From Candidatus Aminicenantota bacterium (GTDB lineage: Bacteria > Acidobacteriota > Aminicenantia > Aminicenantales > UBA4085): 38,530 bases of DNA. The position numbers were made by a program, and so were the translations under genes. This document shows positions 5,994 through 15,308 of the stretch, in pieces (positions within the stretch are counted from its first letter, which is position 1; the number at the start of each line of letters is the position of its first letter). Under the pieces are notes generated by a model, which saw only the letters and a list, made by a program, of their open reading frames with translations, searched no databases and was not told the origin of the DNA. Location: assembly GCA_016867585.1 (NCBI GenBank), contig VGJF01000003.1, forward strand, positions 1-38,530, in the 5' to 3' direction.

Positions 5994-6515
5994 ATGCCTC
6001 GGCCAAGGACCACGGGAAAGGCCGGGAAGCCGACTTTTCGGTACGAAGCCGTCGGCCTCGTCCGCTCTCCCTTCAAGACGCCCGAAGAGATCCCGGTCGA
6101 ACGCAACGCCGACCCCCGCGGCTTCGACGACGTCCGGGGAAAGCTCGTCATCGACCCCGCCTGCGCCCGAGGCCTCAAGGACATCGACGGCTTTTCCCAT
6201 CTCTTCGTCCTGTTCGCCTTTCATCGAGCCGGGGAAGCCAAGCTCCTGTCCCGGCCGCCGTTCGACACGGAGCCCCGCGGCGTTTTCGCCTCTCGCTCTC
6301 CCCGCCGCCCCAACGCCTTGGGCCTGACCATCGTCAAGCTTGAGAGCCGCCGGGGGCGGGTCCTTCACGTCTCGGGACTGGACATGATCGACGGAACGCC
6401 CATCCTGGACATCAAGCCTTACACCGACCGCGACCGCAGGAGGGGGGCGCGGACGGGCTGGCTGGCCCGGTACCGGCGGCGGGCGGCGGGCCGAGGCCGG
6501 AAAGGAGCGGCATGA
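5994..6515 (+). CDS. trmO: tRNA (adenine-N6)-methyltransferase TrmO (TsaA family)
   Basis: VGLVRSPFKTPEEIPVER, LKDIDGFSHLFVLFAFHRA, RSPRRPNALGLTIVKLE, LDMIDGTPILDIKPY. Confidence 0.88.
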   Translation: MPRPRTTGKAGKPTFRYEAVGLVRSPFKTPEEIPVERNADPRGFDDVRGKLVIDPACARGLKDIDGFSHLFVLFAFHRAGEAKLLSRPPFDTEPRGVFASRSPRRPNALGLTIVKLESRRGRVLHVSGLDMIDGTPILDIKPYTDRDRRRGARTGWLARYRRRAAGRGRKGAA

Positions 6516-8518
6516 GAATTCTCTCCCGGACCGCCTTGCGGGCCGCGGCCGCGGTCCTCGCCCCGGCCGCCCTGGCCGTCGGCCAGGACCTCCTCCGCCA
6601 ACTTGGAGGTTTCCAAGACTTCCTCAGCCGGAGGGTCTCCTCCTTCGACCGATCCGGCGGAAACCGGGACGCCCTGACGATCAAGCCGGGAGAGACGGCC
6701 GTCCTCGCCGACCTCCAAGGCCCGGGGGCTATTCACCACTTCTGGGTGACGATCTCGGCCGAACCGTTCTATGGGCGCAAGATCGTCCTCCGGATGTACT
6801 GGGACGGCGAGACGGCCCCTTCGGTCGAAGCTCCGATCGGCGATTTCTTCGGCGTCGGCCACGGGTTGAACCGCAATTTCGCCTCGCTGCCGTTGGTCTG
6901 CTCATCCGAAGGCCGGGCCCGCAACAGCTTCTGGTACATGCCGTTCCGGAAGTCCGCCCGGGTCACCGTGGCCAACGAGGGCCGAAGGGACGTCGCCGCG
7001 TTCTATTACTACCTCGACTACCGGGTCCTCCCTTCGCTTCCGACCGACACGCCGACCTTCCATGCCCAATACCGCCAGGAGACGCCCTGCGCCGCCGGAC
7101 GGAACTACCTCATCCTCGAAGCCCAGGGGCGGGGCCATTATGTCGGCTGTCACCTCAGCGTTTTTCAAAAGGCCATGGGCTGGTGGGGCGAGGGGGACGA
7201 CATGATCATCGTCGACGGCGAGGACTTCCCCTCCCTCCACGGCACGGGATCGGAGGACTATTTCGCCGACGCTTGGGGGATGCGGGAGAGCCAGAGCCTG
7301 TTCTACGGCTGCCCTCTCCAGGAGGAGGATTTCCAGGCCGGCTCCAAGGCCTCGGTCTACCGCTTCCACATCCCCGACCCCATCCCGTTCCGGAAGTCGA
7401 TCTCGGTCTCGATCGAGCACGGCCACGACAACGATCGGGCCGACGATTTCTCATCCACGGCCTACTGGTACCAGTCCGAGCCGCACAGGCCCTTTCTGGC
7501 CCTTCCGACCGTCGAGGCCCGGCTGCCGTTCGCCCTCGAGCCCCCGCCGAACTTCGTCCTCCCGGCCTGGAAAGAAGCCAAGGCCGACCTCGGACAGGCC
7601 TTCGAAGACGCCGAAAAAGGGCTCGCCTTCAAGGGCGGGCGGCTTGTCCTCTCGAAGTCCTCCTATTACCTCCCGAGCGGGGAGCGGTATCCCGTCTTGG
7701 CGACGGACGGGCCGACATCCCCCTCCGTCCACATCGGCTTTCCGGTCGGCGTCGCCGAGCGCTACGACGTGACCCTCTTTTTCCTCAAGGGGCCGAACAT
7801 GGGGATTTGGCGGCCGACGAGCCTCGTTTCGGCCGGGTCCGACGTTTTGGAGGAACGGCCCGACTTTTCCGGGTACGCGGAAGCGAAGGGGATGGGCGCG
7901 CTCTCGCTGAAGAGCGTGTCCCTCTCCGCAGGCCCAGGGGTTCTCGAGCTGGCCCGCCGCGGCAAGGCCCGGGCCGCTTCCGGGGACGACTTGGCCTTCC
8001 TCGGCCTGAGCCTCGTCCCGTCCGAGCGCCGTTATCTCACGGAGTGGAACGTCATCGGCCCGTTCGCCGCGCCGGACATGGACGCCCTGACCGTCGCCTA
8101 TCCGCCCGAGCGGGAGCTCGACCTCGAGAAATCCTACGCCGGCGGATTCGGGAAGACGGCCGTCTGGCGGAAAGCCCGCGCCGGCGCCGGCGGTTACGTC
8201 AACCTCCTCGAATTCGTCCAGCCGGGGGAATACGTCATCGCCTACGCCCTGGGCTTCGTCGAAGCTCCCTCGGCCACGGAGGCCGTCCTGCTCCTCGGCA
8301 GCGACGACGGCGTCCGGGCCTGGGTCAACGGGGAGCTCGTCCACACGAACGCCGCCTACCGGGCCTCCGCCCCGGACCTCGACAAAGTCGCGGTCCGGCT
8401 GAACAAGGGGAGAAATGCCGTTCTCCTCAAGATCCTCCAGGGGGCCGGGGCCTGGGGCTTTCACGCCCGCTTCGCCGACCCCGAGGGCGGGCTGCGCTGG
8501 TCGGCCGACCGGCCTTGA
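6512..8518 (+). CDS. Secreted DUF2961/GH172-like glycoside hydrolase family protein
   Basis: Signal-peptide-like N-terminus; GPGAIHHFWVTI, RMYWDGETAPSVEAPIGDFFG, GTGSEDYFADAWG are DUF2961 hallmarks; C-terminal galactose-binding-like region. Confidence 0.82.
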   Translation: MRILSRTALRAAAAVLAPAALAVGQDLLRQLGGFQDFLSRRVSSFDRSGGNRDALTIKPGETAVLADLQGPGAIHHFWVTISAEPFYGRKIVLRMYWDGETAPSVEAPIGDFFGVGHGLNRNFASLPLVCSSEGRARNSFWYMPFRKSARVTVANEGRRDVAAFYYYLDYRVLPSLPTDTPTFHAQYRQETPCAAGRNYLILEAQGRGHYVGCHLSVFQKAMGWWGEGDDMIIVDGEDFPSLHGTGSEDYFADAWGMRESQSLFYGCPLQEEDFQAGSKASVYRFHIPDPIPFRKSISVSIEHGHDNDRADDFSSTAYWYQSEPHRPFLALPTVEARLPFALEPPPNFVLPAWKEAKADLGQAFEDAEKGLAFKGGRLVLSKSSYYLPSGERYPVLATDGPTSPSVHIGFPVGVAERYDVTLFFLKGPNMGIWRPTSLVSAGSDVLEERPDFSGYAEAKGMGALSLKSVSLSAGPGVLELARRGKARAASGDDLAFLGLSLVPSERRYLTEWNVIGPFAAPDMDALTVAYPPERELDLEKSYAGGFGKTAVWRKARAGAGGYVNLLEFVQPGEYVIAYALGFVEAPSATEAVLLLGSDDGVRAWVNGELVHTNAAYRASAPDLDKVAVRLNKGRNAVLLKILQGAGAWGFHARFADPEGGLRWSADRP

Positions 8519-9154: not shown

Positions 9155-10596
9155 GCGCCGGCGATTTCCCCGGCGGCCGACCGGATGACGTCCCAGGCCG
9201 TCCGGACATGCCGCTCCTCGGTCGTCCTCTGGCCGATGACCATCCGGAGAGTGAATTTTCCCCCAAGGACGGTATGGGTCAGGAAGACTTTGCCCGAGGC
9301 GTTGATCCGCTCCAGGAGGGCCGCGTTGGCGGCGTTGAGCGCCTCCTCGTTTCGCCGGCCGTCGTTCCAGCGGAAGCAGACCAGCCCGAAAGGCACGGGG
9401 GCGAGGAGTTCGAAATCCGGGGCCGCCTCGACCCAGCCCTTGAACAGCCGGGCCAGCCTCTGATGCTCCCGGACGAGGGCCCGCAGCCCTTCGACGCCGT
9501 AGGCGCGGATGACGAACCAGAGCTTCAGGGCCCGGAACCGGCGGCCGAGCTGGATCCCCCAATCGCGGTAGTTCTTGACGAACGGGTCGGCGCCGGTCTT
9601 CAGGTATTCGGGACGGATCTCGAAGGATCGGACCAGGGCGCCCGGGTCCTTGACGAAGTAGGCCGAGCAGTCGAAATTCGTCAGCATCCACTTGTGGGGA
9701 TTGAAGACGAACGAGTCCGCGAACTCGGCCCCGTCGAGGATCGAACGGTTTTCGGGGCAGAGGGCCGCCGTCCCGGCGTAAGCCGCGTCGACGTGGAGCC
9801 AGAGGCCGCGGCCGGAGGCGATCTCCCCGACGGCCCGGAGAGGGTCCACGGCCGAGGACGAAGTCGTTCCCAGCGTGGCCACGACGCAGGCGGGCTGAAA
9901 GCCAGCAGCGATATCGGCCGCGACCGCCGCCTCGATCTCGGCCGGGATGATGGCGAAGTCCGCGTCGGTCTTGATGAGGCGCAGGTTCTCCCGCCCGTAG
10001 CCGGCGATTTTGACGCCCTTCTCGATGCTGGAATGGGCCTCGGCCGAAGCGTAGACCACGAGCGGACGCCGGAGGCCGCGCTCATTGGATTCGAAACCCG
10101 TCGCCCTTTCGCGGGCCGAAATAAGGGCGCAAAGGGTGGCCGTCGAGGCCGTGTCCTGGATCGTCCCGCCGAATCCGGCGGGCAGGCCGAGCATCCGCCG
10201 CAGCCACTCGAGAACCAGGTCCTCGAGCTCGGCCGCGGCCGGAGATGTCCGCCAGATCATGGCCTGGGTCCCGAGGCCGGCGGTCAGCATCTCGGCCAAA
10301 ATGGAGGCGGGACTGTTGTTGGCCGGAAAATAGGCGTGCCAGCCGGGGTGCTGCCAGTGAGCGATCCCGGGCAGGATGATCTCCCGAAAATCGGCGAAGA
10401 TGCGGTCCATCGGCTCGGCCGTCTCGGGCGGATCTTCCGGAAGCCGGCTTCTGACTTCGCCCGGCTTGAGGGGGGATAGAACGGGAAAGCGTTCGATGTC
10501 CCGCAGATAGTCGGCGATCCAATCGACGAACTCGTGTCCGTAGCGGCGAAATGTCTCGATGTCCAAGGCTTTTCTCCCGTTTGAAGGTCCTTTCAT
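9151..10596 (-). CDS. PLP-dependent group II aromatic-L-amino-acid decarboxylase-like protein
   Basis: MKGPSNGRKALDIETFRRYGHEFVDWIADYL; HWQHPGWHAYFPANNSPASILAEM; HVDAAYAG; FNPHKWMLTNFDCS (PLP Lys). Confidence 0.88.
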   Translation of the reverse strand: MKGPSNGRKALDIETFRRYGHEFVDWIADYLRDIERFPVLSPLKPGEVRSRLPEDPPETAEPMDRIFADFREIILPGIAHWQHPGWHAYFPANNSPASILAEMLTAGLGTQAMIWRTSPAAAELEDLVLEWLRRMLGLPAGFGGTIQDTASTATLCALISARERATGFESNERGLRRPLVVYASAEAHSSIEKGVKIAGYGRENLRLIKTDADFAIIPAEIEAAVAADIAAGFQPACVVATLGTTSSSAVDPLRAVGEIASGRGLWLHVDAAYAGTAALCPENRSILDGAEFADSFVFNPHKWMLTNFDCSAYFVKDPGALVRSFEIRPEYLKTGADPFVKNYRDWGIQLGRRFRALKLWFVIRAYGVEGLRALVREHQRLARLFKGWVEAAPDFELLAPVPFGLVCFRWNDGRRNEEALNAANAALLERINASGKVFLTHTVLGGKFTLRMVIGQRTTEERHVRTAWDVIRSAAGEIAGA

Positions 10597-10751
10597 TCTA
10601 GTCCAAGGGTTGTTTCCGGTCAAAAGTCGCTTTCTCGGGGCCGGATTTCGTCTTTTCGGACGGAAAACACGCCCAAACAGGCCTTGGTTGCGGGCCATGC
10701 CAGGCTCTTCGGCCGCGGCCGAAGAATTTTTCAAAAAAATGAAAAAAAATG

Positions 10752-10781
10752 TTGCCGAATTCTTTCCTTTCATGATATAAT
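10752..10781 (+). promoter_or_regulatory. Putative sigma70-type promoter (TTGCCG-N18-TATAAT)
   Basis: TTGCCG 10752-10757, TATAAT 10776-10781, within an A/T-rich island unlike the surrounding GC-rich DNA. Confidence 0.5.
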
Positions 10782-10787
10782 AAAAAA

Positions 10788-11046
10788 AGTGGTTGGGGGG
10801 CCAGCAAATAAGTTATTGAAAATAAATCACTTGTATTTTATTGCGTAATCCTTCCCCCAACGGACGCCTTTTGGCGGCGCATGCAACTCTTTTCCCCGGC
10901 CGGACGTATATAGAGATGAAATGAGAAACAGAGAAGCCGCCTCTCCTCCTCCTTCTTGGGAGTTCTCCATACATCTCCTTTTCATTTAATTCCCTTCCCT
11001 TCTCGAGCGGCCTTCCCGGATGAGCCGGGGAGGCCGTTCGTTTTTT
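10788..11046 (+). ncRNA. Candidate structured small RNA of unknown family
   Basis: Non-coding interval bounded by a promoter-like element and a strong intrinsic terminator; contains GTTGGGGG/CCCCCAAC stem (10792-10799/10854-10861), CGCC-TTTT-GGCG (10865-10876) and GAGATG-N4-GAGAA / TTCTC-N4-CATCTC (10913-10927/10963-10977). No long ORF. Confidence 0.5.
11004..11046 (+). terminator. Rho-independent terminator
   Basis: CGAGCGGCCTTCCCGG-ATGAG-CCGGGGAGGCCGTTCG (16-bp stem including two G-T pairs) followed by TTTTTT. Confidence 0.85.
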
Positions 11047-11101
11047 AGCGGCCGACGACGGCCCTGACCCTCAACGCTTTTATGTTTTCCCCCAAACGCC
11101 C

Positions 11102-11178
11102 ATGGCGCGGCCGCATCCTCCGGAGCGTAGCGGGACCCTCGTCAGGGTGGCGGAGCGAGGGGGAGGCGGCCGCGCCAT
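11102..11178. repeat. 77-bp palindromic element with perfect 13-bp terminal inverted repeats
   Basis: ATGGCGCGGCCGC (11102-11114) and GCGGCCGCGCCAT (11166-11178); interior ACCCTcgtcAGGGT hairpin and two CGGAGCG direct repeats (11121, 11151). Confidence 0.75.
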
Positions 11179-11192
11179 CGATATTTCGGGCC

Positions 11193-11211
11193 TAATACGC
11201 AAAGTGTATTA
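11193..11211. promoter_or_regulatory. Operator-like inverted repeat TAATAC-N7-GTATTA
   Basis: TAATACgcaaagtGTATTA, perfect 6-bp arms, 20 bp upstream of a TTGACA -35 box. Confidence 0.4.
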
Positions 11212-11230
11212 CGGTCAGGCGACGGCCGTA

Positions 11231-11259
11231 TTGACAGGGACGGCCGACTCCGGCAAAAT
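11231..11259 (+). promoter_or_regulatory. Putative promoter for the cobalamin riboswitch transcript
   Basis: TTGACA (11231-11236), 17-bp spacer, CAAAAT (11254-11259). Confidence 0.5.
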
Positions 11260-11265
11260 AGCTTC

Positions 11266-11445
11266 TCTCGCGGGATCGGCCGGAGGGAAGTCCGTTTGAA
11301 ACGGACGCAGCCCCCGCTACTGTGATCGGGGACGATTCCCGGATGACGCCACGGCCCTCGAAACGAGGGCGGGAAGGCCCGGGAGGAGGACGATCCGAGA
11401 GCCAGGAAACCGCCGCCAGACCCCAGGGAACCCGTCTTCGGGTGG
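11266..11445 (+). promoter_or_regulatory. Cobalamin (adenosylcobalamin) riboswitch
   Basis: GACGCAGCCCCCGCTACTGTGATCGGGGACGA core and GAGAGCCAGGAAACCGCC B12 box, followed by ACCCG-TCTT-CGGGT hairpin near the GAGGAGG ribosome-binding site of the BtuB-like gene. Confidence 0.9.
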
Positions 11446-11458
11446 AAGAGGAGGTTTC

Positions 11459-13390
11459 ATGACCATTGCCGCCCTGCTAATCGCCTTCGGCCCGTTCCTC
11501 CAGTCGCCGGCGGAGGAGGCGAACCGAAAACAATCCCCGATCCGGCACGATGTCGTGATCACCGCGACGCGGATCGAAACGCCCGTCCGAGAGGTCGCCG
11601 CCGCGGTGACGCTGCTCACCCGGACCGACCTCGACCGGGCCCTCAGGACGAGCGTCTTCGACGCTTTGGAGAACGCCCCCGGCTTGACCCTTCTCAGGAA
11701 CGGCGGCCCGGGGGGAGTCTCCTCGGTTTTCATCCGGGGGATGAATTCGGAGCACGTCCTGGTGACCCTCGACGGCCTCCCTCTGAACGATCCGGTCAAT
11801 CCGTCCCGCTCGTTCGACTTCGCCCATCTCAGCCTCGCCGGGGTGGACCGGATCGAGGTCCTCCGCGGGCCTCAAAGCCCGCTCTACGGATCGGACGCCG
11901 TGGGCGGGGCGGTCAACATCCTGACCGCCCGCGGAGGCGGAAAACCCCGCCTGACGATGAGCGCCGCCGGCGGTTCCTACCGGACCTTCGACGGAAGCCT
12001 CGACGTCCAAGGCTCGGCCGGGGTCGTCCGATACGCCTTCGGACTGTCCGGCTCGGCGACTAGGGGGATTTCGGCGGCCGGCGCCTCCTATCCGGGAAAC
12101 GCGGAGAGCGACGGCGGCCGCGGCACGACCTTGACCGGACGCCTGGGGGCGACGCTCAAGAAGGGCGCCGAATTCGACCTTATCATCCGGGGGGTCTCGG
12201 CCAGGACCGACCTCGACAATTTCGGCGGCCCCTTCGGCGATGACCTGAACCATGTCCAGAAGCTCGCCGCCGGGCTCGTCCGGCTCCAGGCAAGATTCCT
12301 CCAAGCCGGCGGACGCTTGGAGCAGAAAATCGGCCTCTCGGCATTTAGGTCCGAGCGGACCTATGACAATCCCGCCGACCCCGACCACCCCGGGGAATCC
12401 GAAGGGGGGTCGTTTCAAGGCTCGCGGCTCCGCTTCGACTGGCAGAACAACCTCTTCCTCCACGCCGCCCAGACCCTGACCTTCGGCTTCGAGGCCGAAA
12501 AAGAGGCCGGCCGATCGGAATACCGCTACGAATCGGCCTGGGGCCCGGGCGAGAGCCTTTTCCCGGGCCGCGCCGCCGGCCGGACCGGCTTCTACCTCCA
12601 GGACCAGGTCCGGATCAAGGGACGCTTCTTCGCCGCCGTCGGCCTTCGTCTCGACCGCCACGAACGGTCGGGACTGGCTTTGACCTACCGTCTCGCCCCG
12701 GCTTACCTCATCGAGCGGACGGGGACAAAGCTCCGGGCGACGCTCGGGACGGCCTTCAAGGCCCCTTCGCTCTATCAGCTCTACGCCCCGGCGACCTCCT
12801 GGGGTCCGGTCGGCCACCCCGGCTTGAAAGCGGAGCGAAGCTTGGGGTGGGAGGCCGGGTTCGAGCAATCCCTCTGGGCCGGCCGCGTCGAGTTCGGCCT
12901 CGTCTATTTCCGAAACGACCTCGAAAACCTGATCGATTTCGATTTCGGCCAAGGGTACGTCAACGTCGGAAGGGCCCGGACGCGCGGCCTCGAAGCCTCG
13001 CTCGAGGCAAGGCCGGCCGACGGCCTGGAGGGGCGCCTGTCCTATGCCCAGCTCGAGGCCTGCGACGCGGAATCGAATACCCCCCTCCCGCGAAGGCCCA
13101 AGGATCGCTTCACGGCCGGCCTCCGGTGGGCGGCTGCCGACCGTTTCGAGGCCGGATTTTCCGCCGCCTACACGGGTCCGCGCCCCGACCGCGACTACGG
13201 CGCTTGGCCCGCCCGACCGGTGACCTTGGCCGGGTTCTGGCTTCTGGGGGCCGACGCCTCTTTCGCGGCCGGCGGGGGGACGCGCCTGTTCCTCCGGTTG
13301 GACAATATTCTCGGGGTCCGTTATGAAACAATCTTCGGATACGGCTCCCCCGGGCGCGTCGTCTACGGGGGGGTTCGCCTCAACCTCTGA
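11459..13390 (+). CDS. btuB: TonB-dependent vitamin B12 receptor, BtuB-like
   Basis: TonB-box-like HDVVITATRIE; plug domain DALENAPGLTLLRNGG...SVFIRG, RIEVLRGPQSPLYGSDAVGGAVNI; beta-barrel C-terminus; cobalamin riboswitch in its leader. Confidence 0.88.
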   Translation: MTIAALLIAFGPFLQSPAEEANRKQSPIRHDVVITATRIETPVREVAAAVTLLTRTDLDRALRTSVFDALENAPGLTLLRNGGPGGVSSVFIRGMNSEHVLVTLDGLPLNDPVNPSRSFDFAHLSLAGVDRIEVLRGPQSPLYGSDAVGGAVNILTARGGGKPRLTMSAAGGSYRTFDGSLDVQGSAGVVRYAFGLSGSATRGISAAGASYPGNAESDGGRGTTLTGRLGATLKKGAEFDLIIRGVSARTDLDNFGGPFGDDLNHVQKLAAGLVRLQARFLQAGGRLEQKIGLSAFRSERTYDNPADPDHPGESEGGSFQGSRLRFDWQNNLFLHAAQTLTFGFEAEKEAGRSEYRYESAWGPGESLFPGRAAGRTGFYLQDQVRIKGRFFAAVGLRLDRHERSGLALTYRLAPAYLIERTGTKLRATLGTAFKAPSLYQLYAPATSWGPVGHPGLKAERSLGWEAGFEQSLWAGRVEFGLVYFRNDLENLIDFDFGQGYVNVGRARTRGLEASLEARPADGLEGRLSYAQLEACDAESNTPLPRRPKDRFTAGLRWAAADRFEAGFSAAYTGPRPDRDYGAWPARPVTLAGFWLLGADASFAAGGGTRLFLRLDNILGVRYETIFGYGSPGRVVYGGVRLNL

Positions 13391-14741: not shown

Positions 14742-15308
14742 TCAGGAGAGGTGGTCGAGGAGGATTTTTGCGGCGATGACGATGAGGACCGCGGCTCCGG
14801 CGAGCTCTGCCCGCTTCCCCGCCCAGCGCCCCAGGGCGGGCCCGATTCTCGTCCCGGCCGCGGTCAGGAGAAAGCAGATGGCCCCGATGACGGCCGCGGG
14901 ATAGACGACGGAGACCCTCAGGGCGGCCAGGCTCAAGCCCACGGCCAGGGCGTCCAGGCTCGTCGCCAAGGACAAGATGAGGAGGCGGCCGCCGCGGGTC
15001 AAGTCGGGGCAGGCCGAGGCCCCGCCATCTCCCTTTCCCCGGAACGCCCCGACCGCCATCCGGCCGGCGACGAAGACGAGGAGTCCGGCCGCGACCCAAT
15101 GGTCGAAGCTCGCGATGGCCCGGCTCACCGTCCGGCCCGCCGTCCAGCCGAGGAGAGGCATGAGGAACTGGAACAGCCCGAAGCTTCCGGCCATGCGGAG
15201 CGTCTGAAGGGGCGTGCATCCCCGCATGGCCAGGCTCGCCCCGACCGATACGGCGAAGGCATCCATGGCCAGGGCCAAGGCCAGGGCCAGGACCATCCCG
15301 AAGCTCAT
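14742..15308 (-). CDS. mntP: Manganese efflux pump MntP
   Basis: ALAMDAFAVSVGASLA, FDHWVAAGLLVFVAGRM, SLATSLDALAVGLSLA; six-TM MntP pattern. Confidence 0.9.
   Translation of the reverse strand: MSFGMVLALALALAMDAFAVSVGASLAMRGCTPLQTLRMAGSFGLFQFLMPLLGWTAGRTVSRAIASFDHWVAAGLLVFVAGRMAVGAFRGKGDGGASACPDLTRGGRLLILSLATSLDALAVGLSLAALRVSVVYPAAVIGAICFLLTAAGTRIGPALGRWAGKRAELAGAAVLIVIAAKILLDHLS

Follow-up and report, generated by a model that had tools for sequence, protein, structure and literature searches.

A conserved small transcription unit of uncultured Aminicenantes with an ECF-type promoter, a C/U-rich tract and a short reading frame

Results

Organization of the locus

The window (the whole stretch of DNA analysed, 38,530 nt) contains a small transcription unit between a PLP decarboxylase gene (PF00282) and the gene of a btuB-like TonB receptor (Table 1). 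The decarboxylase gene is also located divergently upstream of the unit in most homologues. Two promoters, P1 and P2, precede a short reading frame that includes a C/U-rich tract, and an intrinsic terminator follows. The earlier note on this DNA described P1, the terminator with its 16-bp stem and U6 tract and, accordingly, an independent small transcription unit. All of these are present and recur in homologues. P2, the C/U tract and the AUG-started frame were absent from that description. Transcription from P1 probably starts near position 10788. The previously assigned length of ~260 nt fits this transcript, whereas an RNA from P2 would have ~130 nt.

Table 1. Features of the transcription unit and its surroundings in the window.
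Feature	Positions	Strand	Remarks
Whole unit, P1 to terminator	10752-11046	+	259-nt transcribable stretch from P1
P1, sigma70-type TTGCCG-N18-TATAAT with extended -10 (ATGATATAAT)	10752-10781	+	pattern in the sequence; recurs in homologues
P1 leader	10788-10882	+	length and sequence vary among homologues; G-run after the start recurs in most
P2, ECF-sigma-type GCAAC-N17-CGTATA	10883-10910	+	conserved at fixed spacing
Short P2 transcript, ~130 nt	10916-11046	+	putative start, from promoter position; matched by model R1
Small ORF, 22 codons, MRNREAASPPPSWEFSIHLLFI and stop	10921-10989	+	ATG 10921, TAA 10989; frame kept open in homologues
C/U-rich anti-Shine-Dalgarno-like tract CCTCTCCTCCTCCTTCTT (homologues: CCTCCTTTTTNNCCCTCCTTTT)	10940-10957	+	third codon positions most conserved
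Intrinsic terminator	11004-11046	+	16-pair GC-rich stem 11004-11040, then TTTTTT; recurs in homologues
GC-rich palindromic element	11095-11190		between terminator and riboswitch
Promoter-like site of the riboswitch	11231		
Cobalamin riboswitch (RF00174)	11254-11400		62.7 bits in the searched stretch, at whose edge the match ends
btuB-like TonB receptor	11459-13390		downstream of the riboswitch
DUF2961 protein	6512-8518		close to the unit
MntP-type manganese efflux pump (PF02659)	14742-15308		close to the unit

Homologues and distribution

A covariance model (R1) was built from eight homologues, leaving out the window itself. It matches the window at 10905-11046 with an E-value of 5.4e-14. In 142 genomes of the class there are ~40 strong matches, one per genome, which are counts that are not independent because the homologues are related. 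The strong matches are confined to one order (families f1, f2, f3, f5, f6 and f7). When R1 was run against 297 genomes of the phylum, four passed E 0.001, all of the same order, and nothing convincing was found elsewhere in Acidobacteriota. Searching 99 genomes at the DNA level yielded two informative matches (G018 and G007), both with the gene neighbourhood of the window, and further homologues were picked up by a pattern search with the conserved block. Weaker members with a reduced core are present in G057, G002, G010 and G017. The named relatives are Candidatus Aminicenantes MAGs, and R1 also matches loci from these MAGs. Sequence comparison establishes that the unit is a genuine and conserved very small gene of uncultured Aminicenantes. 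It likewise establishes P1, P2 as a recurrent motif, the terminator, the maintained reading frame and nucleotide-level constraint.

The unit had been proposed as a new RNA, and no known family matches it. For positions 10400-11400 of the window, Rfam 15 at E ≤ 10 gives only the cobalamin riboswitch above its cut-off; within the unit, no match comes near a cut-off even at this threshold. Cobalamin riboswitches are also the only matches above cut-off in 13 homologous loci scanned at the gathering threshold. 6S RNA, previously left open, has no match in the genome with its covariance model (RF00013) at E ≤ 10, in a search of moderate sensitivity (8 of 14 known genomes detected in the control, four of them over the cut-off).

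Promoters

Three promoter-like sites are found, compared with 0.3 expected in shuffled sequences. The pattern TTGNNN-N16/18-TATAAT lies upstream of P2 in 38 of the 39 homologues with enough upstream sequence, and the distance from P1 to P2 varies from 76 to 380 nt. The folds of the P1 leaders are about equal to those of shuffles (mean z -0.9) and co-variation of leader-core pairing is weak (permutation p 0.028). A leader that hides the C/U tract was considered and rejected: the tract is predicted to be about equally accessible in transcripts from P1 (0.54) and from P2 (0.56).

The elements of P2 are present at the same spacing in nearly all homologues (GCAAC in 37/39 and CGTAT in 39/39). The -35 and -10 elements generally recognised by ECF factors are AAC and CGT, respectively (PMC4153023). 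Both are found in P2 at fixed spacing, and the promoter is presumably used by an ECF sigma factor. The pattern GCAACNNTTN{12,14}CGTATA has 80 matches in the 142 genomes, compared with 18 for the reversed pattern. By our own tally the numbers within the order are 76 and 5, and ~22 of the 76 are the unit itself. Other P2-type sites are located ~20–130 nt upstream of genes for PadR-type regulators with MacB/FtsX-like permeases, of TldD-like genes and of the gene for a small membrane protein that recurs; the names PadR, MacB/FtsX-like and TldD-like are readings of the sequences and not family-library assignments. Each genome encodes 16–38 region-2 sigma proteins, and no convincing copy of the P2 motif was found at 30 sigma loci scanned.

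Pairs of PadR-type regulator and MacB/FtsX-like genes behind the motif are seen at loci L144, L151, L153-L155, L161, L176 and L177, and genome G037 contains several such pairs. The small membrane protein has ~50–61 residues (e.g. MKFRTKFAIFL..LTFVGFNLI) and is encoded at L145, L148, L164-L166, L168, L170, L171 and L175. Its loci have a GCAAC-N17-CGTATA promoter and a clear Shine-Dalgarno sequence, and several are near an ispF-like gene. For two examples of the protein, neither Pfam nor NCBIfam gives a match above cut-off.

Reading frame

In the homologues, P2 is followed by an ATG preceded by purine-rich sequence; next come a variable linker, also purine-rich, and the tract CCUCCUUUUUNNCCCUCCUUUU. 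The earlier note saw no meaningful ORF here and listed MQLFSPAGRI as the only one. That ORF is spurious, and the frame from the ATG at 10921 is open across homologues. Frame 0 has an ATG and is open through the tract in 36 of 43 homologues compared with 6.4 expected from shuffled linkers, a shuffle that preserves base composition and not dinucleotides, with counts that ignore relatedness. The other two frames are open in 6 and 9 homologues, which is near expectation. The linkers are 12–54 nt long; in the 31 tabulated homologues, which were chosen for an in-frame start, every length is divisible by three. Frame-0 linkers are free of stops in 33 of 36 cases (22.8 expected); the three with a stop are open in other frames. 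An apparent frame shift and shift back is seen in G083/G059 and in G018. The consensus frame is broken and not restored in G015, G045, G081 and G043, and the minimal homologue G057 has one tract and a different frame.

Close pairs of homologues are not enriched in synonymous changes, and the advantage of frame 0 in amino-acid similarity is mild and limited to larger divergence. Thus, the peptide as such may be unimportant. Five of the peptides were compared with Pfam and NCBIfam, and no family was found at E ≤ 1. The ORF is probably translated, as judged from the kept frame.

C/U tract

The most conserved part of the unit in the homologues is the linear C/U tract behind the second, ECF-type promoter. 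Its sequence resembles the anti-Shine-Dalgarno end of 16S rRNA, a likeness compared only in G052 (GGATCACCTCCTTT), the one of six genomes searched in which the 16S 3' end was read. Anti-Shine-Dalgarno motifs of the alpha-r14/NfeR1 type are present as CCUCCUUUUU..CCCUCCUUUU in homologues and as CCUCUCCUCCUCCUUCUU in the window. CTC CTT, CCT CCT and ATA are nearly invariant. The entropy is 0.98, 0.88 and 0.80 for codon positions 1, 2 and 3, respectively, so that the third position is the most conserved. Third positions are nearly invariant although the homologues differ in GC content, and in one codon the first two positions vary while the final C is kept. Because of the codon-position entropy and the lack of a synonymous excess, a reading of the unit as all protein has to be tempered. 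In predicted ensembles the tract is ~55–60% unpaired. All six genomes tested encode an Hfq-like protein, which scores over the cut-off in three of them, one being the genome of the window. The tract may act in trans on Shine-Dalgarno sequences of target mRNAs.

Terminator and folding

Four terminator-like sites were found, compared with 1.9 expected in shuffles. In an alignment of 16 homologues the terminator is the sole consensus helix, and six of its base pairs show changes in both partners. In this alignment the covariation sought by the earlier note is seen in the terminator only. The stems that it listed (GTTGGGGG/CCCCCAAC, GCAATAA/TTATTGC, CGCC-TTTT-GGCG and GAGATG../..CATCTC) are local to this genome and form no conserved fold. 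Two further hairpins are possible in many homologues, an alternative GGGAG/AUUCCC pairing and one that joins the second CCUCC to the GGAG after it, but their pairing registers shift. The RNA is best explained as short and mostly unfolded, probably ending at its own terminator. Of the proposed structured small RNA the transcription unit stands and the structure does not; the structured, non-coding interpretation is not supported. Overall, the earlier observation is partly confirmed and its interpretation partly supported.

Discussion

Comparison with known systems

Three known systems share features with the Aminicenantes unit. Pos19 (RSs0019) of Rhodobacter sphaeroides belongs to the regulon of the ECF-type factor RpoE; its small ORF is translated and it is also an Hfq-linked RNA regulator (PMC5036791). 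Both RNAs are short and combine an ECF-type promoter with a small ORF; the function of the Aminicenantes RNA is deduced from sequence. The Pos19 ORF comprises 150 nt of a 219-nt RNA from a different phylum, and its abstract does not mention an anti-Shine-Dalgarno tract (PMC5036791). A Pos19-like coding sRNA should have a small ORF that is kept and translated; in the Aminicenantes unit the frame is kept, the amino-acid constraint is weak and translation is predicted.

The alpha-r14/NfeR1 RNAs of rhizobia block translation initiation with repeated unpaired anti-Shine-Dalgarno motifs (CCUCCUCCC; PMC10746234). The Aminicenantes RNA shares this kind of motif and might likewise pair with ribosome-binding sites. 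The rhizobial RNAs have three conserved motif-presenting hairpins and a sigma70 promoter and are described as Hfq-independent (PMC10746234). In contrast, the Aminicenantes tract is linear and tandem, and the unit combines it with an ECF-type promoter and a reading frame that is kept. Three hairpins with identical motifs are not found in it, the terminator helix alone being conserved.

The CCUCCUCCC motif is also carried by the CcsR/cuckoo family. These alphaproteobacterial RNAs have an RpoHI/RpoHII promoter, a link to a small protein and an intrinsic terminator (PMC10253847), and the Aminicenantes unit is similar in its putative stress-sigma promoter, small-protein link and terminator. In CcsR, four RNAs are processed from the 3' part of the transcript of a separate small protein (DUF1127; PMC10253847), whereas ORF and tract overlap in the Aminicenantes unit.

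Proposed function and alternatives

The simplest joint reading of the data is a translated ORF that overlaps an RNA element. We favour, with about even confidence, an order-specific coding sRNA induced by an ECF sigma factor, which would be both a small message and possibly an anti-Shine-Dalgarno regulatory RNA. Transcripts would arise from P1 and, under stress, from P2. The short frame would be translated, and the C/U tract embedded in it would pair with Shine-Dalgarno sites in target mRNAs and thereby keep ribosomes from binding. The peptide would be a second product.

A purely non-coding, ECF-dependent anti-Shine-Dalgarno sRNA is possible but rather unlikely. The open frame would then be a by-product of the purine-rich 5' part and the stop-poor tract. 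Conservation at the nucleotide level that is strongest at third codon positions, the absence of a synonymous excess and the broken frame in several lineages are consistent with this, and known sRNAs work in this way (alpha-r14/NfeR1, PMC10746234). However, same-composition shuffles yield far fewer open frames, the excess is limited to one frame and the linkers differ in length by multiples of three.

The unit might instead be a plain small-protein gene, i.e. an ECF-dependent mRNA for a basic-hydrophobic peptide of 20–50 residues with no trans-acting RNA role, which we regard as unlikely. The kept frame and the mild amino-acid signal at larger divergence agree with it. Furthermore, the P2-type promoter precedes protein genes elsewhere, including that of another small protein. 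The nearly invariant third positions at differing GC content, the codon that retains only its final C and the close pairs lacking a synonymous excess argue against it.

In a self-limiting form of the dual RNA, translating ribosomes would cover the tract, and other mRNAs would be silenced only when translation of the RNA itself falls, e.g. under stress. The frame would then be maintained because translation itself is needed, whatever the peptide sequence. Such an RNA would account for an open frame under weak amino-acid constraint and for near-invariant third positions, as well as for frame switches that leave an ORF open through the tract. We consider it quite unlikely.

A cis-acting leader or attenuator of B12-uptake genes is very improbable. 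The unit usually directly precedes btuB-like or btuF/C/D-like genes. In the window the terminator is followed by a cobalamin riboswitch, as it is at 9 of the 13 homologous loci that were scanned. However, the terminator divides the unit from the downstream genes, and the riboswitch of the window has its own promoter-like site. The B12 genes of G015, G087, G043 and G037 are encoded on the opposite strand, and G035 has different genes downstream; thus, the unit is not simply their leader.

A structured non-coding RNA, either divergent 6S-like or of a new class, is hardly tenable: the fold of the 259-nt RNA from P1 is better than that of shuffled sequences (z = -2.6), but the terminator is the only conserved helix, the leader fold is not conserved, a 6S match is absent and a reading frame is kept.

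A literature search found no paper naming both Aminicenantes and sRNA. The favoured coding sRNA would be one of the first sRNAs, regulatory or coding, to have comparative support in these widespread uncultured bacteria. If the dual reading is right, the unit is a clear case of an anti-Shine-Dalgarno tract inside a maintained reading frame. Additionally, an ECF-type promoter motif is defined and part of its putative regulon is gained.

Counting itself, the palindromic element between terminator and riboswitch has 17 matches in the genome (E ≤ 0.001) and resembles a dispersed repeat of the REP/MITE type.
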